From a virus, in the IMG/VR virus record IMGVR_UViG_3300006751_000078, positions 1-30,827 of that record: a DNA stretch of 30,827 bases, one strand, 5' to 3'. The notes beneath the pieces were generated by a model, which worked only from the letters and a program-made list of their open reading frames with translations, did not search any database and had not been told where the DNA came from. Shown in pieces: positions 1-29,615 of this stretch. Every line of letters begins with the position of its first letter. Position 1 is the stretch's first letter. Made by a program: the position numbers and the translations under genes.

Positions 1-3000
1 TCCAAGGTTCAACATTACACTGCCAACTAGATTGACAGCAATTTGGAATTGTAGGATTAAAACATTCAGACTGACTATTATATGTTCCTGCAGGATCTGT
101 TATACAAGTACAAGGTGTCCAACTTCCACTGTAACAAAGACAAGAACTAGTTAAAGTAATAGCATGTTCACCACTCTCATTAAATAGTTTCTGTTTAATT
201 GTAGGAAGATCATCAGTCATAGTAACATTAGATAGTCCTGCATTTATTATAGCAGTTCTAAAACCATCAGCAGTAGTTTTTTGTCCTGTAGCAAACGAAC
301 TAGTAGAGGGTACTTCTATCCATACTAGATAACTTTGTATATAACTAGGATATGTAGGATCCCAACATGGATTAGTAGGAGTAATGGTATTATCTAAGTA
401 AAAATATTGATTAAAAGTTTTAGTACCATTACCAGTCTCAAAGAACCATTCTGCTGAACAATTTCCTGCTGCTGTTGCTGGTGTCATAGTTGCTAAGTCC
501 ATTCCACAATATGGTGGTCCAGTATTTTGTACAGTTGTATTCCACATTACAGGATCCGATGGATCATTATTCCAAAACATCTGTGTTTTTGTAGCACAAT
601 CATTAGTTCCAGTAAAAGTTCCAGGTTCACATTTCCATTTCTCACAAGATCCATCATCTACTGTTGCTAAGTTATTATAACATGGATCACTAGGATTCAT
701 ACAACCACAAGTAAAACAACTACCATCATCACATTGTGCAGTTGGATCATAATTACATCGTACATATCCTGTAGGAGTATTTGTAGGAGCTACACAATCA
801 TATGCAAGACCATCACTAGTACAATATGGGCCTGCTCCACCTGGACCAGTTCTTCCACAATTTCCTAATGCATCACAACCATTTATATCAGGATTTAGAG
901 CAAATAAACTACCTCCAGTATAATCTTCACCATCAGTACAACCACACTCACCACAACAATTAGAGGCATCTAGATTACATGCATCTTCATCTACATGATA
1001 TGGCCCTCCTGATGCTTTTGTAGGATCTTCTACACAATCACAAATTGATTCTTCACAAATACACCATCCATCCAATTCTTTCATTCCTGAATAAGTTCTC
1101 ATTATAGGCCATGTTGCAGAAGGTGGATTAGGATGAGCAGCAGCTATCCAATATTTTCCCCAATGTGTTGTAAGATCTATACCATTTGGTCCCCATGAAG
1201 TATTAGTTGATAATGGATGATTTAAGTAAGTGCTTCCCCACGTATAAGTAGTACCATCTAATGGATATCCAAATAAATCCCAATAAGTATCTGTAGCATT
1301 AAAATTAGGTAATCCTAATCCTGATAAAACACCTGTACTATTTGCCCAACTTATAAAGTTATCTACACCAGAAGACCAACTTGGCCACTTAGGATTATAA
1401 CATCCACCACATGAGGAATTAGACCAAGCTGTCATTGCAGCACACCAATTATTAGGCATAACAGTGCCAAGTATAGTTGCACCACAGTTACCACCACCTG
1501 AATGATTACCCTGCATATGACTAGTAAATGAACCACATTCAGTATTGCCACTAGGAATAATAGCAGGATTATCTTCTTTACATTTAGGAAAATCATATCC
1601 ACTAGAATCATCACAATCCCAACTAAAATAATTATTAGCATTTTCACCTATCCATGAAGTACCATTATTATTGTTTAGTGAATCTGAATAATATCCAAAT
1701 CTTTGTTCTCTGAAACGACCAGGATAAGGATTAGCATCACTATGATTTTGAGTTTGAGAATAAAATCCATCATCAAGTAATCCTGAATTTATACATTCAT
1801 TAACAGGAGCACCTGCAACCCAACTACACACACATGTTCTAGCACCTTGAGCTTGTAAATAATAACCTTCACCCTGTATCATTGTAACCACCTGTTCAAA
1901 GTTTTTTGTAAAATTAAGGCTTGAAGGAGGAGCTCCAATTGTATTTGTCCACCAATCCTGTATACCTGCCATTACATCAATCCATGTCCAATCTCCTCCA
2001 GTATTAAATGGATTATTAATACTATGGTAAAGAGTAGTACCACCACTATTAAAAATTTTAATATTAAAAGTAGAACCAAATTTAACAAAATATCCACTAG
2101 TATCAGTATGACCTTGATTCCAATGATCTCTAGTAGCAGATGAAGAAGGTCCTATACATTCACATGCATCTGGTGGCATACTACCCCCATGATCAACTGT
2201 ATTACACCATTTCATTTCTCTAAAATCACCTGCAGCTAATCCATTTGAGAATGTAGTAACATACATAAGAGAAGTATCTGACGGAGTATAATTATCAAAA
2301 CTATACTCTACTAAATTAATCATATTAAGTCCTCCTATATCATCTATTGTTGCTCCATTAACTGGATCCCACTCACAACTATCTCTATATACTGTTGATT
2401 CACATACCCAATAATATTCACAACACTCACCAGTACCAGGCCCTGTACAAGCTGGATTAGATGTTGTTGTGCATCCCATATATGTTCCATCACAATCACA
2501 AGTAGCTGCACCATCATAATTAACTGCATTTACATCTTGACAACCATAAATACAGAAATTACAACATCCAGTATTAGTACCTCCTGGTATACAAAGACAA
2601 TCTGCAGTAGGTGCTTGAGCAGGAGTTGTCATTTCTAATCCTGTATCTGCACAAATTGCATAAGTAGTATTTACTCCTGTTAAATCTATACAACCAGCAT
2701 ATAAACAAGATCCATCATCTAAATTAGCTGTAGCATCATAATTACATGCACAAACATCCATACATCCATATCTACTTAATGGCTGACTAATAAATATTGT
2801 TATTACTTCTGTACAACCTTCAGAGTCCATTACTATTATAGTATAAACACCTGGTCCTAATCCTGTTGCAGAAGATACATTTCCTGGATCAACAAATCCA
2901 CCCCAACTAGAACTCCAACCATATGTATAAGGTAATGTACCACCAATTGCAGTTATAGTAATTGTTCCATTATCAATACCAAGATCTGCATCTGTATGTA

Positions 3001-6000
3001 CTTCTGTAACAATGAAAGAACCACAATACATGCAAGAACCATCATCTACATTTGCTAAAGAACTATAATTACTTGCAGTAGGATCAGTACATCCCATTAA
3101 TATTGGCTCTTCAGGAATTATTACTTCTGGTGGACATGCATCAAATATATCATCACAACATACAGCTGGACATTCTTCTGTAACAGTTATTTTTATTTTT
3201 TGTTGTCTACAATCACCTTCAGATGTAAGACACCAACATAAATTAAGTATATGTTGAGTATCTACTGAAGCATTAGGAATTACTATATGAAAACGACCAT
3301 ACTCATCAGTTGTACCAAGATTTGCACCATCTAAAATTATATCATAATCTTCAACAGCAACTCCATTCTGATTGACTACAGTTATATACCAACACTCAGA
3401 ATCATCACATTCCAATTCTTGTGACCCCCAAAAGTCGTTTAAATCATTTATAAAAGTCTGTTCTGTAAAAGGTTCCATAGAAACATTAGTTCCCCATCCA
3501 TAATTATCTAATCCACCATAACCATAAGCAGAAGGAGAACCTGAACTAAAAGGAGGAAGAATATTAGGAGCTATAGGAGTATAATAAGGATTAACTCTTA
3601 CATGTCCTACATAATTTTCAATAGCACACATTTTAACACCTATACCATTAGCTCCTCCCATTCCAGGAGAACAATGTGGTGCTGTACCTTGTGTAAAAGT
3701 TCCATCTTTAACAGTTTGATTACCACTTGAAATAGCACCTAAAACATGTAATGGAAATGGTTTATGTGTACTAAAGATAGTATTAGGTTTAGAAGGATAT
3801 ACAAAGAAACTTGCATTATGATCAGCTGATTGACCTATCCAATTTGTGTATGCACTTACAAATGCATTATAATCACCTTTCCAAGTAAATCCTACTTCAG
3901 AATCTGATCCATCCACAAGTGTACCCATTCCATCTGTTGCTTTAGGCCAAATTGTAGTCACAGATGTACCAGTATCATGATATAATGAAGGAGATGCTGG
4001 ATTTTGTCCATCATTACCATTTTCTGCTTCATCAGCAAATATCACAGTCAAAAGACATTTTGCAGTTGATGCAGGTGGAGGACCTAATAATGTAATAGTA
4101 TTCATATTTGTTCCACTACCAGTATCACCAGCTTGTTTACCACCATACATTGTTACACCATTAACATCTGCCCATTGATGAACCTGCCAAAATATATTAC
4201 CTGGAAGATTAGTAACATTATTAGTATTCATATTAGAAGAACCAAAAGGAGATACATAATTATCCCATGAACCTGTCATAGCACAACTAGCCCAATCTAA
4301 CCAACGTTCTTTACCTTGTGCTGAATGAAATTGATTTCCTGTAAATCCTAAACCGGTTAACCAAACTTGTGTAGCATCATATGCATCTTTAACTTCAGTT
4401 TCACCCAATGAACTTGTATCATAGAAGAAATACAAATCACAATCAGCCGCCTGAGACTCAGAAAGTCCACATAATTCTGTTACCCAAGTAGGTTTATATG
4501 GATCATCTGGATTAGGAGCACCATCAACAATAGGATAATCATATGTAGCTTCTTCTTTAAGATCTGCTCTAAGATATGAAGGTAGTTTTCCATCTTCCCA
4601 ATCACATAATCCTTTTTCATTTAAATGATTTTGGTAATCAGATCCACAACAATTACCAATTCCATATCTTAAGGATTTATATTTTTTATATACATCATCA
4701 GCAAAACTACATTCTATTTCAATCTTTCTGATAACATAATCTGTTTTATCTGGTTTCTTTTCTCTTTTACACGGTGTATCCTCATATAAACATGGATTAG
4801 AAACATCAGTAGCTGAAACTTGATTTACAGTAGCTGTAGGATCATAATTATCTGCATTAGGATCAGTACAACCATATACAATAGTAATACAAGTACCATT
4901 ATCACAAGTAGCTAAAGGATTATAATTAAGTGACGTAGAATCCATACAACCATAAACACAAGGAAGACAACAATCATTAGGTGTACCTCCATCACAAGGA
5001 AAGCATGCATCAGGATCATAATTAGATGATCCAGGATCTTTACAGCCAGTACACGGAACACTAGTACAACATGAGCCATCATCATAAGTAGCTGCAACAT
5101 CATAATTACATGCTGCTATATCTGTACAACCAGGTGTACCTGTACAATCTCCACAATCACCAGCTATATATGTTATTCCAGCAGGATTTGATTCAGAAAG
5201 ACCATCAGCAGCAACAGTAAAAGAAGTACCTTCATATTCCCAACAAGCTCCTCCAAGTTCTGGAACTTGTATAGTTTCTCCTATAGCAGGAGGACCACCT
5301 GGTATATTATCAAAAAATTGTTGATTTTCAGATGGTATATTAGTTGCAAGTAAAGGAATAAAATTCACATGAAGTAATCCTGTATCACAATCTGTCCATT
5401 GATGGAATGTTTCATAATAACAAGAACCATCATCTATTGTAGCACAAGGATTAAAATTAGATGCTAAATATCCAGTTGCACAAGGCCATGTACAAGGATC
5501 TGTAACAGTTGGTATTGTAGTTGATACTGCACAATTATATACTGCAGCTGTACCATGACCATTTATATCAGGCATCCAACCAGCTTGTGCAGTACTATCC
5601 GTACAACCTAGTATATCCTCAGTTGCAGTATCACAACTAGCACAATCTACAAATGGCCCTTGTATATTTTCACATATATTACCATTTAATGTCCATTCTG
5701 GCCATACATTAGGACTAGCTCCAACAAATAATTGAGTACCTATATATTCCCAACATGCTGATGTGGAACCACAACCACATCCAAGAGAAGGATCACAATT
5801 AGCCTCTTGTATTTTTACAAACTCCCCTACTGCAGGACTTCCTACTAAATTATAAAAATTTATACTTGACTGAGATTGTAATAAAAGTTTTGCTGATCCA
5901 ACAGCAAGATTTATAGCAGTACTATCTATATAATGAACTTTATTTGAAAAAGGAGTGGCTCCAGTACAACCAGGATCACGTTCTAAAAATACATGAAATT

Positions 6001-6358
6001 CATATTCTGGTATGGTTAAGCATTCTGCACAATCAGGATATGTAGTATAAGGACCTCCTACAGAATCAAATAATGTTTGTGGAATAAAATCATTTGTTCC
6101 AAGAGATGTAGTTATAGCTACTAGTTTTATACATCTGAAAGATTGCTCACCAGTAGGAGTGGGATCTAAATAATCAGGTATTGGTATAAGAATTACATCA
6201 CCTATACTAGGTGATCCTAATGCAGTCCAAAATGCTATATTTTCAGCATGTTTAGATACGGTAGGTACCCCCACATTAGGAACAAGCCAAAAACATGTAG
6301 ATCCTGCTCCACCGCCTACTTCATCACACCAAACCCATCTATAAAAATTATCCTCCAC
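1..6358 (-). CDS. Giant cysteine-rich tail/adhesin protein (partial, C-terminus outside window)
   Basis: The minus strand stays open from a GTG at 6358 to the window edge, 2119 codons without a stop. No in-frame ATG occurs until about 5570; the GTG follows an A-rich leader and lies 11 bases after the upstream stop, so it is the likeliest start. Visible parts in order: a Cys-containing N-terminal region; a block of GCTDP-like repeats ending in DDGSC (about residues 290-525); a region with a DTSS patch vaguely like a von Willebrand A domain (about 590-960, weak); a CnaB/carboxypeptidase-regulatory-like domain (about 987-1057, with TDEYGRFHI); a further DDGSC repeat; a SprB-type repeat (about 1113-1191); two more Cys repeats; a Trp/Asn-rich region; then two repeats near 645-765. 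Position after connector and tail genes, together with adhesin-type domains, suggests a tail fibre or host-recognition protein. That role is inferred; the repeats are seen directly. Confidence 0.8.
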   Translation of the reverse strand, partial: MEDNFYRWVWCDEVGGGAGSTCFWLVPNVGVPTVSKHAENIAFWTALGSPSIGDVILIPIPDYLDPTPTGEQSFRCIKLVAITTSLGTNDFIPQTLFDSVGGPYTTYPDCAECLTIPEYEFHVFLERDPGCTGATPFSNKVHYIDSTAINLAVGSAKLLLQSQSSINFYNLVGSPAVGEFVKIQEANCDPSLGCGCGSTSACWEYIGTQLFVGASPNVWPEWTLNGNICENIQGPFVDCASCDTATEDILGCTDSTAQAGWMPDINGHGTAAVYNCAVSTTIPTVTDPCTWPCATGYLASNFNPCATIDDGSCYYETFHQWTDCDTGLLHVNFIPLLATNIPSENQQFFDNIPGGPPAIGETIQVPELGGACWEYEGTSFTVAADGLSESNPAGITYIAGDCGDCTGTPGCTDIAACNYDVAATYDDGSCCTSVPCTGCKDPGSSNYDPDACFPCDGGTPNDCCLPCVYGCMDSTSLNYNPLATCDNGTCITIVYGCTDPNADNYDPTATVNQVSATDVSNPCLYEDTPCKREKKPDKTDYVIRKIEIECSFADDVYKKYKSLRYGIGNCCGSDYQNHLNEKGLCDWEDGKLPSYLRADLKEEATYDYPIVDGAPNPDDPYKPTWVTELCGLSESQAADCDLYFFYDTSSLGETEVKDAYDATQVWLTGLGFTGNQFHSAQGKERWLDWASCAMTGSWDNYVSPFGSSNMNTNNVTNLPGNIFWQVHQWADVNGVTMYGGKQAGDTGSGTNMNTITLLGPPPASTAKCLLTVIFADEAENGNDGQNPASPSLYHDTGTSVTTIWPKATDGMGTLVDGSDSEVGFTWKGDYNAFVSAYTNWIGQSADHNASFFVYPSKPNTIFSTHKPFPLHVLGAISSGNQTVKDGTFTQGTAPHCSPGMGGANGIGVKMCAIENYVGHVRVNPYYTPIAPNILPPFSSGSPSAYGYGGLDNYGWGTNVSMEPFTEQTFINDLNDFWGSQELECDDSECWYITVVNQNGVAVEDYDIILDGANLGTTDEYGRFHIVIPNASVDTQHILNLCWCLTSEGDCRQQKIKITVTEECPAVCCDDIFDACPPEVIIPEEPILMGCTDPTASNYSSLANVDDGSCMYCGSFIVTEVHTDADLGIDNGTITITAIGGTLPYTYGWSSSWGGFVDPGNVSSATGLGPGVYTIIVMDSEGCTEVITIFISQPLSRYGCMDVCACNYDATANLDDGSCLYAGCIDLTGVNTTYAICADTGLEMTTPAQAPTADCLCIPGGTNTGCCNFCIYGCQDVNAVNYDGAATCDCDGTYMGCTTTSNPACTGPGTGECCEYYWVCESTVYRDSCEWDPVNGATIDDIGGLNMINLVEYSFDNYTPSDTSLMYVTTFSNGLAAGDFREMKWCNTVDHGGSMPPDACECIGPSSSATRDHWNQGHTDTSGYFVKFGSTFNIKIFNSGGTTLYHSINNPFNTGGDWTWIDVMAGIQDWWTNTIGAPPSSLNFTKNFEQVVTMIQGEGYYLQAQGARTCVCSWVAGAPVNECINSGLLDDGFYSQTQNHSDANPYPGRFREQRFGYYSDSLNNNNGTSWIGENANNYFSWDCDDSSGYDFPKCKEDNPAIIPSGNTECGSFTSHMQGNHSGGGNCGATILGTVMPNNWCAAMTAWSNSSCGGCYNPKWPSWSSGVDNFISWANSTGVLSGLGLPNFNATDTYWDLFGYPLDGTTYTWGSTYLNHPLSTNTSWGPNGIDLTTHWGKYWIAAAHPNPPSATWPIMRTYSGMKELDGWCICEESICDCVEDPTKASGGPYHVDEDACNLDASNCCGECGCTDGEDYTGGSLFALNPDINGCDALGNCGRTGPGGAGPYCTSDGLAYDCVAPTNTPTGYVRCNYDPTAQCDDGSCFTCGCMNPSDPCYNNLATVDDGSCEKWKCEPGTFTGTNDCATKTQMFWNNDPSDPVMWNTTVQNTGPPYCGMDLATMTPATAAGNCSAEWFFETGNGTKTFNQYFYLDNTITPTNPCWDPTYPSYIQSYLVWIEVPSTSSFATGQKTTADGFRTAIINAGLSNVTMTDDLPTIKQKLFNESGEHAITLTSSCLCYSGSWTPCTCITDPAGTYNSQSECFNPTIPNCCQSSWQCNVEPW
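645..765 (-). repeat. Two further Cys-rich DDGSC repeats
   Basis: Two adjacent copies of the same repeat lie near the left edge of the giant tail gene. The first is truncated (CNYDPTAQCDDGSC, about 765-718). The second has a lengthened first half (GCMNPSDPCYNN, ending VDDGSC, about 708-645). Confidence 0.7.
2785..3022 (-). other. SprB-type repeat domain within the giant tail protein
   Basis: The translation shows the sequence of landmarks typical of SprB repeats: NGTITITAIGGTLPYTY, then GWSSSW, then GLGPGVYTIIVMDSEGCTE. These match the family pattern (nG-i-v-a-GG-pYtY-W ... l-aG-YtvtvtD-nGCt). SprB is the gliding adhesin of Flavobacterium johnsoniae, and this repeat is largely a Bacteroidota feature. 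Its presence in a phage tail protein points to the host group and to acquisition from a host surface protein. Confidence 0.75.
4792..5130 (-). repeat. Tandem Cys-rich GCxD...NY...DDGSC protein repeats (four copies)
   Basis: Four consecutive copies are read inside the giant tail gene, at about 5130-5067, 5055-4975, 4956-4891 and 4878-4792. Each begins Gly-Cys-(Thr/Lys/Met)-Asp, has a central Asn-Tyr, and ends near Asp-Asp/Asn-Gly-Ser/Thr-Cys. Related single copies lie at about 5478-5422, 3096-3033, 2771-2708 and 2547-2484. The repeat type is familiar from secreted proteins of marine Bacteroidota and some algae. Confidence 0.8.
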
Positions 6359-25800: not shown

Positions 25801-28301
25801 TCTACCATGTTATATAAATTAATATCTATATTTTTTATATCTTCTAACCGATCAGCCAATCTAAGTGCTACTTGGGTTCTACTTTCTCCAGTAGATTGAC
25901 TTATTTTTCCAATTTCATAATCACGATTTATAGGATTACCATAATAATTTAATATATGCTGTTTGCCTTCTAATATTTTTGCTCTTCTAGGATCTGTACG
26001 TGCAAGAGTACTTAATTTCTCATTTTTAAAAACATTTTTTACTATCCCACTTAGATCTCTTCCAAACTGTCTTAGACCTTTTCCAAACTGTGCTTTAGGT
26101 AACTCTCCTCCTTCTTTCTCCGATAATAGCTCTTCTAAAGTAAAGTCAGAATATCCATTTTTAATACCCTTATTTTTGGCATCCTCTATACTTGCTCTAA
26201 AACTTTCACGATTTCCTTTTGTTTCTTTATTCTTATGTCCTTGTAACCATAAATCTTCAAGTGATAATTTACCATCTGCAAAATCTTTTAATACTGCATC
26301 TGACTCAATTAAATTTGCAAAAAATAATGTATATTGTTGTTTTTTACTTAAATCTCTTGCATCAGTAACATCTAATATATTTTGATCTATATTAAAATCT
26401 GTTACATCCGCAATATTTTTATATCTTGCTTGTGCAGTTTTTAAAGATGAAGGTTCAAATTGAAACATGCCTCTACCTGGACCATCATAAAATCCTGTTT
26501 CTTCATTTCCTGATACCTGTACGGCTTTAGGATCCATTCTTTGACCAGCACTACTTTCATGATATGCTATAGAATCTGCTGCACCACTCCATAAATCTAT
26601 ATCACCACCTCTTGTTTCAATAATATAATTCATAATATTATTGAGATCTAATAGTTTGGGTTTATCTTCTTCTATTATCTCTAATTTATTAGGGAGTGGA
26701 ACTATAGTATTATCTTGTATCATTGGTGGTATTGTATCCCATGATCCTCCTTCTTGAAAGAGTCTATAATTTTGAGCATCATATGGTGGATTTCCTAGAC
26801 TAGGTAGTATTTCTGGATTATAGAGTTTCTCATTAAAAAGAAACTTCATTTTATTATAATTATCACTAGTTCCATAAGGTATAATTGTTTTTCCTAAATC
26901 TACTTTACTTAATTCTTTTAAAAGATCGGTTACCTCAGAAAATGTAATTACTGCATCAGGATGAAGATTCTTTTCATTTGGGAACATCTTATTAAACTGT
27001 GCTCCTGTATATTCAGTATGTCCAGTATTTACCATCAATTGATGCAATCTTTCTATACCATCCCTTGAAGTTCCTATATAACCAGTAGTGCCTCCAGGTC
27101 CACTCAAAAATGGTTGAGATAAATCTCCTAGTTCTCTATTTATATATCCTTTTAAGTTATCAGAACCTTCCTTAGAAGATAATTCTCCACTAATTGGATC
27201 TCTAACAAAATTTTCTTTTATCATCTCTTCTCTCCAACTCTGGAAACCAGGTTTAAATAAACCTTCTGCACTAGCCTGATCAAAAAGACTAGTTGCTAAT
27301 CCTTTTGGACTTACACCAGAAGGAATATTACTTTTATATGGATCAGTGATATTCCAAGGAAACCGTATATTTTGATTGAAAGAACTCAAAGAAATATCTT
27401 TTGGATATTGATGAGGAGCAATATTTATATTAGGCACAAATCCTCTTTCTACATTAACATTTTCTTGAATATTTCCAGGTGGTTGTACATTTTTTTCAAT
27501 ATTAGTGATATCTTGTTTTAAAAAGGCTGTATGTGTATCAGGAGCAATCTGCATAATTTTATGTTCTGATTGTTTTCTTAACCTTAATTCTTCTTTTGTT
27601 TTTGGAAGATTTTTTATTTCCCAATCATTTAAAAATCTTATATCACCATTTTTAAATGTAACTTTATTATAATGTTTTTCACTATAAGGTGGTAGACCCC
27701 ATTCTGCATACGGCCATTCATTCTTAGGTATAATAGACTTATCCGTTCTATGAATAGGATAATAATCCAATACGTTAGAAGAAGCAGGTAATGCTGTTAA
27801 AGGTCTATTCTGTAATTGAAGATTCTTTAACCAATCATCTGCAAGTAGTTTTTGTTGTGCTTGATATTCTTGAAAACTTATTCCAGAAATAGGTGTATTT
27901 GAAGGAGGGGCATATAAAGGAGAAGTCTTTCTAGTACTTCCCTTTAGATTAGTATTCTTTACGATATCATCTAACTGCTTTGAAAACTTACGAGCATTTC
28001 TAGCCCCTTTGGTAAAAAGCTCTAAACCCCACTGTGCCGTAGGAATGGGATCAGATGATGGAACACCAAAATCAACATCACTCCATCCATCAGGAGTGTC
28101 TACATCTATATCCATATTAAAATCACCAGGATTCATACTATAAGCTGTAGTATCTCCACCTGGATCAAAAGACTCTGTGCTTCCTCCTATTCTATTTTCC
28201 TTTAAGTTTCTAGAGTATGCAGGAAGCTTTGGTTGGCCTTCAACTTTTAACTCATCTACGAGACCCATCCAGTCTATCTGTTGATTAATTTTCCTTCCCA
28301 T
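22827..28301 (-). CDS. Giant modular virion-type (polyvalent) protein, 1824 aa
   Basis: Large phage proteins of this design are often carried in the virion and injected. Visible modules: an N-terminal region rich in Pro/Asn; a lysozyme/transglycosylase-like domain (about 560-680) with Glu582 in AYHESSAGQRM and GPGRGMFQFE (607-616), matching the Glu/GxFQ pattern of muralytic enzymes; an HExxH zinc-peptidase motif (893-897, TTIHELNHLL); two C-terminal modules not recognised. A junction motif, best form GGELPKAQFGKG, occurs at 731-742, 1102-1113 and, altered, 1512-1521, with a degenerate IPTAQWG at 86-92. Each is followed by a basic amphipathic helix. Further EGG motifs lie near 523 and 1800. 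No signal peptide or membrane segment is seen. It is the first gene of the leftward cluster. Enzyme activities are inferred from motifs. Confidence 0.8.
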   Translation of the reverse strand: MGRKINQQIDWMGLVDELKVEGQPKLPAYSRNLKENRIGGSTESFDPGGDTTAYSMNPGDFNMDIDVDTPDGWSDVDFGVPSSDPIPTAQWGLELFTKGARNARKFSKQLDDIVKNTNLKGSTRKTSPLYAPPSNTPISGISFQEYQAQQKLLADDWLKNLQLQNRPLTALPASSNVLDYYPIHRTDKSIIPKNEWPYAEWGLPPYSEKHYNKVTFKNGDIRFLNDWEIKNLPKTKEELRLRKQSEHKIMQIAPDTHTAFLKQDITNIEKNVQPPGNIQENVNVERGFVPNINIAPHQYPKDISLSSFNQNIRFPWNITDPYKSNIPSGVSPKGLATSLFDQASAEGLFKPGFQSWREEMIKENFVRDPISGELSSKEGSDNLKGYINRELGDLSQPFLSGPGGTTGYIGTSRDGIERLHQLMVNTGHTEYTGAQFNKMFPNEKNLHPDAVITFSEVTDLLKELSKVDLGKTIIPYGTSDNYNKMKFLFNEKLYNPEILPSLGNPPYDAQNYRLFQEGGSWDTIPPMIQDNTIVPLPNKLEIIEEDKPKLLDLNNIMNYIIETRGGDIDLWSGAADSIAYHESSAGQRMDPKAVQVSGNEETGFYDGPGRGMFQFEPSSLKTAQARYKNIADVTDFNIDQNILDVTDARDLSKKQQYTLFFANLIESDAVLKDFADGKLSLEDLWLQGHKNKETKGNRESFRASIEDAKNKGIKNGYSDFTLEELLSEKEGGELPKAQFGKGLRQFGRDLSGIVKNVFKNEKLSTLARTDPRRAKILEGKQHILNYYGNPINRDYEIGKISQSTGESRTQVALRLADRLEDIKNIDINLYNMVDDVSGYYTRGRYTDLSTRIGASDGIGAYFQNPFAKKRDIIALNEYHVGDDLNDMKETTIHELNHLLRKSEQSSDWSKLGSDYKPIYKGGQLRDQLKDIYYRTIGKPFRGNFNLKPDNQYYEPFNEQGIAFHPSFNVDRVSPVDKPFELSKWWNQPAEQQNMLATLRKDLLSKGFQKPGKDLTMGEFNNFIDDWYIQFKSPTTSYSNETEKLLRFSKYMHLLKDASALSINAGVLKDVFNVTNKFDGRKYQIINERQKLLDAINKGFSEGGELPKAQFGKGLVNLMKKYKNWKPNIPFYNYTPYSGVKGDKIWNPFFERWEKSHKIDAIDKTKNVFLKEVADTKSINEYLQYEKQRIDEPRDMGLFESLFNIEKTISPYDEIELLQNIKGSMLPAFDTYLEGINAGRKFDRSMVNLYKSLPLNLKVAPGLFSDIFFPTSFSSHYDRLSKTWKHAREKENLSGPINKKTLKYVPRVQRRRDLDKKFLDYLDRRLDNLKGNFKPKNVSGVNPEVGGDFDIDIKKAMDEFNNPLPGAPQPQFQPFVNPQYYTDLEKYYIGRHGTGEGYGRNYPMNVSGSSDRLWLNAHNFKSGLEAMAYEMWLKSSRRNPLGLNIDKSTGLLDKLPSDNLSREKLSSDLQWTDRVWTPNWFNKGIPPGEMPDTPLRSTFINKRNLPWNLNEKGGELEKAQKGREVIETGIKLLNRLRKIKPTSKTTNETLYRSVLLNDAIRNSKMFKGMSDDDILEIMATTIPPNTNTYRKGQFFQTLNFANDIPSSLKHISKYTDNPTGMWRIGDTPYDPTLPNLTNPKQDLGTRGIFGAPATGILGGDKFLLETTPYDDFPLLSAEDQNLLVKYAAEAEELGFHNKDITPIMKQFSFPAFRSEGINVMTGNFPQFIGVEGTPIGSLQNISLIDDALKEKYKPVIPKKKGSVSEGLTIEQWLEKHGNLFNQKKIKKDVLGNPIIPKKQEGGEPINDSFYSRDNYTSNASKYRRV
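23739..28046 (-). repeat. Four-copy GGELPKAQxG junction motif in the 1824-aa protein
   Basis: Copies at 28046-28026 (IPTAQWG, degenerate), 26111-26082 (GGELPKAQFG), 24998-24969 (GGELPKAQFG) and 23768-23739 (GGELEKAQKG). The two exact copies use different codons (GGA GGA GAG TTA against GGA GGG GAA CTA), so the peptide and not the DNA is being conserved. Spacings are about 645, 370 and 410 residues. Confidence 0.8.
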
Positions 28302-28339
28302 ACAACAATATACGAAAAATCCAAAACCTTTCCAAGCTT

Positions 28340-28374
28340 CCCCCCACCCTTTTCCACTTCCCCCCTACACCCCC
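28340..28374 (-). other. G-rich tract, potential G-quadruplex, in the divergent hub
   Basis: The minus strand reads G5-TGTA-G6-N10-G3-T-G6 in a genome otherwise poor in G/C runs. Four G-runs with loops of 4, 10 and 1 bases could form a quadruplex. It lies 39 to 73 bases before the start of the 1824-aa gene, so it would be in that transcript's leader or in the promoter region. Confidence 0.6.
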
Positions 28375-28420
28375 TCAGACGGATTAAGACTTACTGATGA
28401 CAAAAACAAAGATGTGTTTG

Positions 28421-28506
28421 GTGTTCTGATTGGGTCCTACCGTTAAACCTCCCCCACTTAAATTTGCTTGTGGGAACCCCCCTGCAAGTGGAGAACACTA
28501 ATCAGA
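28421..28506 (+). promoter_or_regulatory. Structured 5' leader of the GC-rich small gene
   Basis: An inner hairpin pairs CCACTT (28454-28459) plus GC (28466-28467) with GCAAGTGG (28484-28491), with a GGG/CCC tip. It is enclosed by TCTGATT (28425-28431) pairing AATCAGA (28500-28506). A competing 7-bp pairing, GTGTTCT (28421-28427) with AGAACAC (28492-28498), shares three bases with the outer stem, so two folds exclude each other. The element ends 17 bases before the start codon at 28524. A regulatory role is inferred. Confidence 0.5.
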
Positions 28507-28523
28507 GGGTAAATAATTTTATT

Positions 28524-28862
28524 ATGAGTTTAAAAAAAGCTGTTTATTTCAAAAAGGTGACTCGTACCAGAAAGGCTGTTGTATTCTGCGTTGAGAAACC
28601 AACTGCTGCTGCTGTCAAGGCTGCTGATGCAGGAAGTGCAGGAACTGCTAGTATCAACTTTGGCGGAAAGGCTATTAAGGGGCGTAAAGCGTTCCACAAC
28701 TTTGGCAGACAATACTTCGTGCAAATGGACTGTACCAAGTTGAACAAGTCTGATGAGCCAAAAGTGGGCACTGAATTCCAGATTGTAACAACTACTAAAC
28801 CTGTTATCAATCAGGAAACCAAAGAGGAGTTACCAAACCTCTTTTGGGGCTATGTAGGGTAA
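28524..28862 (+). CDS. GC-richer basic small protein of unknown function, 112 aa
   Basis: The ATG at 28524 is taken as start because the longer upstream frame crosses the structured leader. The protein begins MSLKKAVYFKKVTRTRKAVV and has a low-complexity Ala/Gly stretch (about residues 30-45). A beta-rich core follows (RQYFVQMDCTKLN, VGTEFQIVTTTKPVI), and it ends LPNLFWGYVG. It is basic, with many Lys and Arg near the N-terminus, which suits a single-strand DNA- or RNA-binding protein, but no OB-fold signature can be proved. Codon use differs from neighbours (Phe TTC 5 against TTT 3; Asn AAC 4 against AAT 1), indicating very high expression or recent transfer. It is framed by structured RNA on both sides and faces away from the leftward cluster. 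Confidence 0.75.
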   Translation: MSLKKAVYFKKVTRTRKAVVFCVEKPTAAAVKAADAGSAGTASINFGGKAIKGRKAFHNFGRQYFVQMDCTKLNKSDEPKVGTEFQIVTTTKPVINQETKEELPNLFWGYVG

Positions 28863-28866
28863 ACTA

Positions 28867-28992
28867 AAGGGAGTACCACGTAACTGGTACACCCTTAAAG
28901 GCTGTCGTTGACAGCATAAGAACACTCACTCAGGGTAAGCAATCCAACTTGACCGGAAGGAAAATAGTTGCAACTTGTCCCTTTGTGTTCTT
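28867..28992 (+). ncRNA. Multi-hairpin structured RNA downstream of the GC-rich gene
   Basis: Three helical units follow the stop at 28862. (1) AAGGG-A-GTACC (28867-28877) pairs with GGTAC-A-CCCTT (28886-28896). (2) GCTGTC (28901-28906) pairs GACAGC (28910-28915) with a three-base loop. (3) A long arm: AAGAACAC (28918-28925) with GTGTTCTT (28985-28992), then AGGG (28932-28935) with CCCT (28979-28982), then CAACT (28945-28949) with AGTTG (28966-28970), and a CC-GGAA-GG tip. Segment 28863-29339 has no credible long ORF. This could be a 3'-UTR-derived RNA, a free ncRNA, or an mRNA-stabilising element. No known family is recognised. Confidence 0.55.
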
Positions 28993-28999
28993 TCTATTC

Positions 29000-29118
29000 C
29001 CTTTTGAAAGGTATAGTGACATATATCTCACTAAATTAGGCTCACTTCCTAAGGATAGACAAATCTTTTAAGATTTTATAGGTTAAAGCAATTTTTTTTG
29101 TGCTTTTGTTACGCAAAA
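29000..29118 (+). other. Series of small hairpins with a U8 tract
   Basis: CCTT-TTGA-AAGG (29000-29011); TAGTGA/TCACTA (29014-29033); palindrome AAATCTTTTAAGATTT (29061-29076); AAAGCA (29085-29090) with TGCTTT (29101-29106) around eight T residues (29092-29099); CTTTTG/CAAAA(A)G nearby. Transcription from the small gene may end here, but no single hairpin plus T-run has the classical terminator form. Confidence 0.35.
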
Positions 29119-29134
29119 AGAGTTAATGGTATAC

Positions 29135-29164
29135 ATTACCACATATTACCACATTATACCACAT
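29135..29164. repeat. Three tandem 10-bp repeats (ATTACCACAT)
   Basis: ATTACCACAT, ATTACCACAT, TATACCACAT stand without gaps. The exact 10-bp period places each copy on the same face of the helix. This is the layout of iterons or of a multi-site operator. It lies between the structured RNA and the rightward operon. Confidence 0.75.
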
Positions 29165-29204
29165 AGTAGTTTGTATAGTGCATAATAAATATATAGCTAT
29201 CATT

Positions 29205-29273
29205 AGAGTAAATAGGAGTGATGAACCTACAATTACAAAGAAGTCATGGTCTAGACTAAGTTTGTATTACTCT
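29205..29273 (+). promoter_or_regulatory. tRNA-sized three-way-junction leader of the rightward operon
   Basis: AGAGTAA (29205-29211) pairs TTACTCT (29267-29273). Inside are TAGG (29213-29216) with CCTA (29226-29229), and TACAAA-GA-AGTC (29234-29245) with GACT-AAG-TTTGTA (29254-29266). The 69-base length, 7-bp closing stem and the arm directly adjoining it recall a tRNA, but there is no anticodon arm or TTCRA loop. TAAGTTTG (29257-29264) also fits a TAnnTTTG promoter box, so this could alternatively be promoter DNA. A second hairpin, TATTCTCT/AGAGAATA (29284-29305), follows. Confidence 0.45.
29221..29259 (+). CDS. Possible 12-codon leader peptide
   Basis: ATG at 29221 runs 12 codons (MNLQLQRSHGLD) to TAA at 29257-29259. 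AGGAG stands two bases before the ATG, a rare Shine-Dalgarno-like context in this window. The ORF lies inside the three-way-junction leader, so ribosome passage would open the second arm. Chance occurrence is quite possible. Confidence 0.25.
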   Translation: MNLQLQRSHGLD

Positions 29274-29339
29274 TATGTATAGTTATTCTCTCTGTATAGA
29301 GAATAGGCATAGTAACCACAACATTAAAAATTTAAAGAC

Positions 29340-29615
29340 ATGAAAGTATTTGGATATAATCGTAAAGGTTTTTTATACATTGATACAGGTTCTCATCTTA
29401 TCTCTCAACAAGTTAGTTCAAATGCATCAAATATGCTGAACAAGTATTCTACTCTTAAAGAGTTTGAGAACTATGATGTAGCTGCTAGCATTTATTATAA
29501 AGAAAAAGACTTGCAAAGGAAAGAAGCATATCATAAGAGTCAGATTGATCATAAAGGTTTAGTTGTGATAGATGAATTTGATAATGAAGAATATTTAAAT
29601 GAAAAAGGCATATGA
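29340..29615 (+). CDS. Unknown small protein, 91 aa, first gene of the rightward operon
   Basis: No family recognised. The sequence is soluble, mixed and charged: MKVFGYNRKGFLYIDTG looks like a beta hairpin, followed by a helical middle (NASNMLNKYSTLKEFENYDV) and an acidic end (VVIDEFDNEEYLNEKG). There is no membrane or signal segment. The start has an A-rich leader (AAAAATTTAAAGAC-ATG) of Bacteroidota type. The stop overlaps the next start as ATGA. As first gene after the divergent hub it may belong to the early or middle phase, judged only from direction and neighbourhood. Confidence 0.75.
   Translation: MKVFGYNRKGFLYIDTGSHLISQQVSSNASNMLNKYSTLKEFENYDVAASIYYKEKDLQRKEAYHKSQIDHKGLVVIDEFDNEEYLNEKGI

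Follow-up and report, generated by a model that had tools for sequence, protein, structure and literature searches.

At the sole strand switch of a 30.8-kb linear virus record (the window, that is, the whole stretch of 30,827 nucleotides that was analysed), the DNA from 28.3 to 29.34 kb is a conserved control hub whose elements are kept jointly in more than 20 related phages, all of them marine. On its left, genes for capsid, portal and terminase, distantly related to crAss-like ones, are encoded on the minus strand; from 29340 rightward the plus strand carries short genes. The elements of the hub are conserved, held at regular spacing, present in single copy and found together, and its one small gene has a marked codon bias; from these we infer what the elements do, including the promoter and activator roles, the self-regulation and the identity of the protein. 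The best reading is that of a divergent early/late control region arranged around an abundant, possibly self-regulated protein of the single-strand-binding type, and the hub looks like the central place from which both early and late genes are switched.

We hypothesize, with confidence that is about evenly balanced, that the hub serves a crAss-like phage as its main divergent control region. Late transcription would start leftward from a recurrent AT-rich box, observed as a motif; rightward there would be two units, a gene for a small early protein and then the early operon. The first unit is probably monocistronic and would encode an early protein of small size and very high expression, most likely a nucleic-acid binder of single-strand-binding type with an OB fold. 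Its single-copy leader with C-run words would regulate the gene in cis, combining promoter and operator and perhaps serving as a binding site of the small protein itself, and a hairpin after the gene would close the transcript. Three CCAC sites in helical phase would fix the start of the second unit; they lie on one face of the helix about 35 bp before an ATAGCTA box, and an activator, from phage or host, probably binds them. The 5' untranslated region of the early operon would carry a swappable hairpin. All promoter positions given here are predictions from sequence.

The divergent junction and its relatives

The preliminary description had presented this region as the window's only strand switch, with a base composition unlike that of its flanks. 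The list of open reading frames (ORFs) bears out the former, and the GC content (0.43 at 28.0-29.0 kb, against about 0.30 in the surrounding DNA) bears out the latter. Its suggestion of a combined regulatory locus is well supported by the joint retention of the elements in relatives; the lack of conservation that it had named as evidence to the contrary is not what the search of more than 20 relatives returned.

These relatives were reached by several routes. The small gene as sole query yielded one close contig. A terminase search gave 395 matching stretches, 388 of them encoding a relative, from which 80 loci were kept, and the small-gene family was present in 10 of 48 records searched (47 derived from the terminase search, together with that of L002); a search with the family alignment raised the number of small-gene loci to 18. 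A search of viral_contigs with the leader pattern found 15 contigs, each with a single copy, and one with the box that follows the early-leader hairpin found 25, among which L171, L173 and L175 are chance matches. In the true new hubs from the latter search, the family gene lies at the same position wherever the upstream part was read, and the leader lies upstream of that gene wherever the contig extends far enough. Since the same array is recovered from the gene, from the leader pattern and from the post-hairpin box, three independent probes converge. No annotated phage related to the hub was found by protein or DNA search. The window's large terminase subunit (TerL, with matches in 137 records) is about 25% identical to those of crAss-like phages and its portal and capsid match portal and capsid PHROGs, a set of sequence matches by which we class the phage as crAss-like.

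Several further observations concern these genomes as a whole. Seven contigs from different metagenomes (L167, L168, L169, L170, L176, L178 and L184) have nearly identical hubs, the hairpin included, and are probably one widespread phage species. In G005, G049, G052 and the window, only 2-10% of starts have Shine-Dalgarno-like sequences and A makes up about 50-55% of the bases upstream of starts; the scarcity of Shine-Dalgarno-like sequences fits Bacteroidetes-type hosts. A Leptolyngbya phage record is likewise almost devoid of them. At the record end of Leptolyngbya phage Lbo-JY46 (L186:15400-15600) there is a divergent junction with a leader-like string (GTGGACCCA...ACTACTCCCCC...GCACCCC), whose first rightward gene (237 aa, third-position GC 0.37) is by eye not homologous to the small gene. 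At the far left of the window, an ORF of at least 2119 aa (positions 2-6358, minus strand; third-position GC 0.10) runs off the window and has no Pfam match; recoding of a stop codon was considered for it and rejected, as the frame is open in the standard code.

On the minus strand the hub begins with a late-promoter-like box, TTTTTNGTATATTNTNGTATR (28299-28319), which reads into the late arm and in the hub relatives examined precedes the divergent minus gene as TTTTNGTATATTATAGTATA. A scan with a position-specific scoring matrix (PSSM) of this box found further matches in G005, G049, G052 and the window; those clearly exceeding controls are all on the late strand, and an ORF starts within 50 bp after 11 of the 13 matches listed. 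Recurring in this way before late genes on the late strand, the box appears promoter-like. It overlaps the mechanically called ATG at 28301, and the true start of the minus gene may lie some 30 bp further in.

Beside the box, C-tracts at 28340-28374 form G-tracts on the minus strand that are capable of forming a G-quadruplex in the window strain. The potential G-quadruplex noted earlier thus stands for the window and its near-twin L106, which both have the four-run tract, but it is not conserved in other relatives: their upstream C-runs differ, and those always shared are the CTCCC and ACCCC words of the leader. In three relatives the density of runs of four or more C is 0.29-0.40 per kb per strand.

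The early operon start and the question of an origin

The 10-bp tandem repeats of the preliminary description proved to be a conserved feature. In the window the repeats are exact over 29135-29154, with a third copy at 29157, and contain three CCAC boxes (29137-29164, plus strand) starting at 29139, 29149 and 29159. In 20 of 23 hubs, three CCAY boxes follow one another at exact 10-bp intervals and lie 34-38 bp ahead of ATAGCTA, although the array was never part of any search pattern; as to the exceptions, L120 and L121 keep two boxes and L174 is degenerate. The array has been lost in L123 (G052). With an expected count of 0.00-0.10, the strict pattern occurs only at the hub in G049 and the window, and in G005 at the hub and at one further CCAT-type match. 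Such exact helical phasing points to an array of bound protein, consistent with an activator site or iterons. The boxes are followed by an AT-rich promoter-like stretch (29176-29203, plus strand) ending in the ATAGCTA box (29193-29199), which is conserved in 23 hubs; its PSSM score is 32.4 at the hub, against 11.7 for the next best site in the window.

A long early-leader hairpin overlaps the end of this stretch (29196-29283, plus strand; minimum free energy -23.0, z -2.35). It is followed by a second small hairpin with a conserved box, TCTCTGTATAGAGAATAGGCATAGTA (29284-29314), before the first gene of the rightward early operon (29340-29615), which encodes 91 aa, is 99% identical in L002 and matches no family above the cut-off. 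Most of the 12 hubs folded first form the long hairpin (z about -1 to -7), and over 23 hubs z falls below -2 in roughly half, with no significant hairpin in L166, L172, L174, L179, L181 and L182. The leader had been described as tRNA-sized, which leads no further: ARAGORN detects no tRNA in either the window or L002, and a tRNA or tmRNA element was accordingly ruled out. A Y RNA, prompted by the TROVE protein among the early genes of crAss001, was also rejected, there being no TROVE match in 15 records.

The upper part of the hairpin (about 29207-29272) is replaced between close relatives. It is wholly different in three close pairs, window/L106, L107/L111 and L108/L109, whose overall identity is 92%, 95% and 82%, respectively; within these pairs the identity of the top is at or near chance (7-9 of 30 positions between the window and L106) while the flanks are nearly identical. 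Replacement is not universal, as the hairpin is conserved within L112-L116 and within L120-L121. It is somewhat unlikely, in our estimate, that the hairpin serves for processing of the RNase III type or for mRNA protection, its sequence free to change so long as it is double-stranded and with no role in immunity. Retention of the stem through complete changes of the top in the three pairs would be expected of such an element, as would the near-continuous stem of about 25-28 bp in L112-L116; the six hubs with no significant hairpin, however, argue that it is not essential to the module, and wholesale replacement in close relatives exceeds the expected drift. Because the top is replaced wholesale, with its frame kept, between hubs that are otherwise 82-95% identical, diversifying selection might instead act on the hairpin, as RNA or as DNA, in the way expected of a self/non-self tag or a decoy against host defence or competing phages, an idea we regard as rather improbable.

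Whether the same elements mark a replication origin was approached through cumulative GC skew, a check proposed in the preliminary description. In G005 and G052 the global minimum of the skew coincides with the hub, and G049 likewise has a minimum at this place, but the skew tracks the coding strand everywhere, small inverted islands within an arm included, and so cannot locate an origin at the hub. An origin based on skew was therefore rejected, and of the origin/regulatory locus first suggested the regulatory part stands, whereas for the origin part gene orientation explains the skew inflection. An origin that is, or lies within, the hub is a possibility that we judge unlikely: the CCAC boxes would be initiator iterons, the AT-rich stretch and hairpin an unwinding or priming site, and transcription from the hub would prime replication. 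Single-copy phased short repeats do lie next to an AT-rich stretch and to a hairpin, with a candidate single-strand-binding gene as neighbour; to these come the skew minima at the hub and, in Crassvirales, a reported GC-skew inversion between two likely replichores (PMC10136315). Against this, besides the dependence of skew on coding strand, the arms of G005 are very unequal (about 25 and 98 kb), and in contig L135 (L135:2421-2779) the leader stays with the small gene; its upstream neighbour is another gene, and neither CCAC array nor hairpin was seen in the DNA that follows. The arrangement in L135 also means that leader and array are separable and that the leader belongs to the gene, the pair behaving as a unit. 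We favour, over an origin, a control region in which the array would set the start of the early operon.

The small gene and its leader

The leader element (28404-28482, plus strand) has an A-rich start followed by conserved words, GGGTCCTA at 28432, CTCCCCC at 28449 and AACCCCCC at 28475. Across relatives it keeps the words GGTCCTA, CTCCC and ACCCC in genomes of 30% GC, and it is single copy per genome, with PSSM scores of 33-52 against at most 8.5 elsewhere. In each of the 15 contigs found by its pattern it stands ahead of a member of the small-gene family, and leader and gene remain together at 23-27% protein identity, which is consistent with a cis element of the small gene. In L172, L179, L181 and L182 a second TGCTCCC/CTCCCC string, resembling that of the leader, lies upstream of the CCAC array, before the second promoter-like unit; possibly the two strings share a binding site. 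Many relatives have an A/T-rich stretch with TTAAA before the start codon; starts in these phages are A-rich.

The leader does not behave as the switch-like structure first suspected. It folds no better than shuffles (z -0.33), no covarying helix is seen across 16-25 relatives, RNAalifold gives three weak pairs or none, and the complementarity of its 5' and 3' arms equals that of shuffled and swapped controls. A leader-encoded peptide was rejected as well, since in the alignment its frames are shifted by one base and have stops in relatives.

The multi-hairpin RNA suggested after the gene fared better, for 28860-29000 folds better than shuffles (z -3.3). A hairpin directly after the stop codon (28867-28896, plus strand), which resembles a 3' end or terminator, is present with differing sequences in nearly all of 12 relatives folded, followed in L121 by TTTT. 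Two further hairpins (28901-28915 and 28918-28992, plus strand) are nearly identical in L106, and more distant relatives fold otherwise; no consensus structure was found on the sequence alignment of the 3' hairpins because the sequences diverge too far. A conserved string, ATCACTATCAT, occurs in the 3' region of L112-L119 and L107-L111 and is absent from the window's clade.

The precedent for structured regulation is gene 32 of T4, which encodes a single-strand-binding protein that regulates its own translation through an operator in which a pseudoknot is combined with an unstructured stretch rich in UUAAA (PMC535899). By analogy, leader and 3' region could be structured RNAs, a switch or a gp32-type pseudoknot, acting in cis on translation. 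The strong conservation of the leader words between genes of only about 25% protein identity, and the hairpins that follow the stop codon, would suit such an arrangement, but with the leader's failure to fold, the weak or absent consensus pairs, an arm complementarity equal to controls and no Rfam match at the gathering score, we think it very doubtful. The structure tests are compatible with linear recognition of the leader RNA. The likeness to gene 32 is thus one of working only: an abundant nucleic-acid-binding candidate with a conserved cis leader just upstream and an A/T-rich stretch before its start codon. The hub leader differs in having neither pseudoknot nor covariation, the hub protein in having no acidic tail and a single-stranded DNA binding that is only predicted, and no sequence relationship was found.

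The gene itself (28524-28862, plus strand) was examined through its translation, a family alignment, codon bias and an AF2 model; it starts at 28524 and not at the mechanically called TTG, and belongs to an unannotated family. The protein has 112 aa in the window and 86-139 aa elsewhere; identity to the window protein drops to about 17-25%, with a tryptophan near the end nearly invariant. At E <= 0.01 it has no match among Pfam or PHROG families, and none of the solved structures is matched with confidence. Apart from one short helix, the AF2 model (pLDDT 74-75) is all-beta, and its top Foldseek matches are mostly OB folds, none with E below 0.001; on this model the protein is weakly OB-fold-like. 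Net charge in the family ranges from -3 to +13, so it is not uniformly basic, and an acidic C-terminal tail is absent (C-termini are, for example, EELPNLFWGYVG and VTNCYWASLPKA). In L123:4001-4850 (G052) two copies of the gene lie in tandem, of which the second retains parts of a leader (the words GGCATTGGTGA and CTCCCCAGC).

That the gene is GC-richer than its neighbours, as first described, is confirmed by its third-position GC (0.42, against 0.10-0.26 in other window genes). In the near-complete relatives G005 and G049 no other sizeable gene is as biased towards C-ending codons, and in a third, G052, just one ORF, antisense to the small gene, scores higher, with the capsid-sized gene (539-543 aa) next in rank: in G005, G049 and G052 the small gene reaches 0.79, 0.61 and 0.50 and the capsid-sized gene 0.49, 0.45 and 0.43, against medians of 0.13-0.20, and in the window the small gene scores 0.52, the capsid gene 0.23 and the remainder 0.04-0.16. 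The bias is weaker in the most distant hubs (0.24-0.30 in L172, L179 and L182). With the qualification that codon bias is a proxy for expression and that the gene is short, this suggests that it is among the most strongly expressed of the phage, and high expression would account for its odd composition, the bias being as in the capsid gene. Acquisition of the region as a lateral cassette of foreign base composition, for which the GC content of 0.43 and the third-position GC might speak, is barely credible: all hub relatives found have the small gene at the corresponding junction, a conserved synteny that contradicts it, and the bias runs in the same direction as that of the capsid gene, which selection for expression would be expected to produce.

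A search for PF00436 single-strand-binding proteins (SSBs) found no match in 15 related records, as against matches in 11 of 14 control genomes, an absence compatible with another divergent SSB elsewhere. Given the OB-like matches, the codon bias and this absence, we favour the small protein as a candidate abundant protein of the single-strand-binding type.

Relation to known phages and implications

Phage N4 reportedly has early and late transcription and a virion RNA polymerase. Transcription in Crassvirales is described as broadly similar to that of N4 (PMC10136315). Like the window, Crassvirales such as crAss001 and phi14:2 have oppositely oriented modules with a skew inversion, and their early, middle and late transcription may be counted as a further likeness (PMC10136315); the window's TerL, portal and capsid are distant relatives of Crassvirales proteins. 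In the literature searched, by contrast, no such SSB-like gene, promoter, origin or RNA element is mentioned at the Crassvirales junction, and the small gene sets the hub apart, with no match in 50,697 phage records.

CrAss-like phages are very abundant, yet their promoters are poorly described in the literature searched. The hub supplies testable promoter and operator motifs (the late box, the phased CCAC array and the leader words) for the whole marine group. Its swapped hairpin is a defined place to look for recent conflict between phages or between phage and host, and its small protein could be the single-strand-binding protein that genomes with no recognisable SSB appear to lack.
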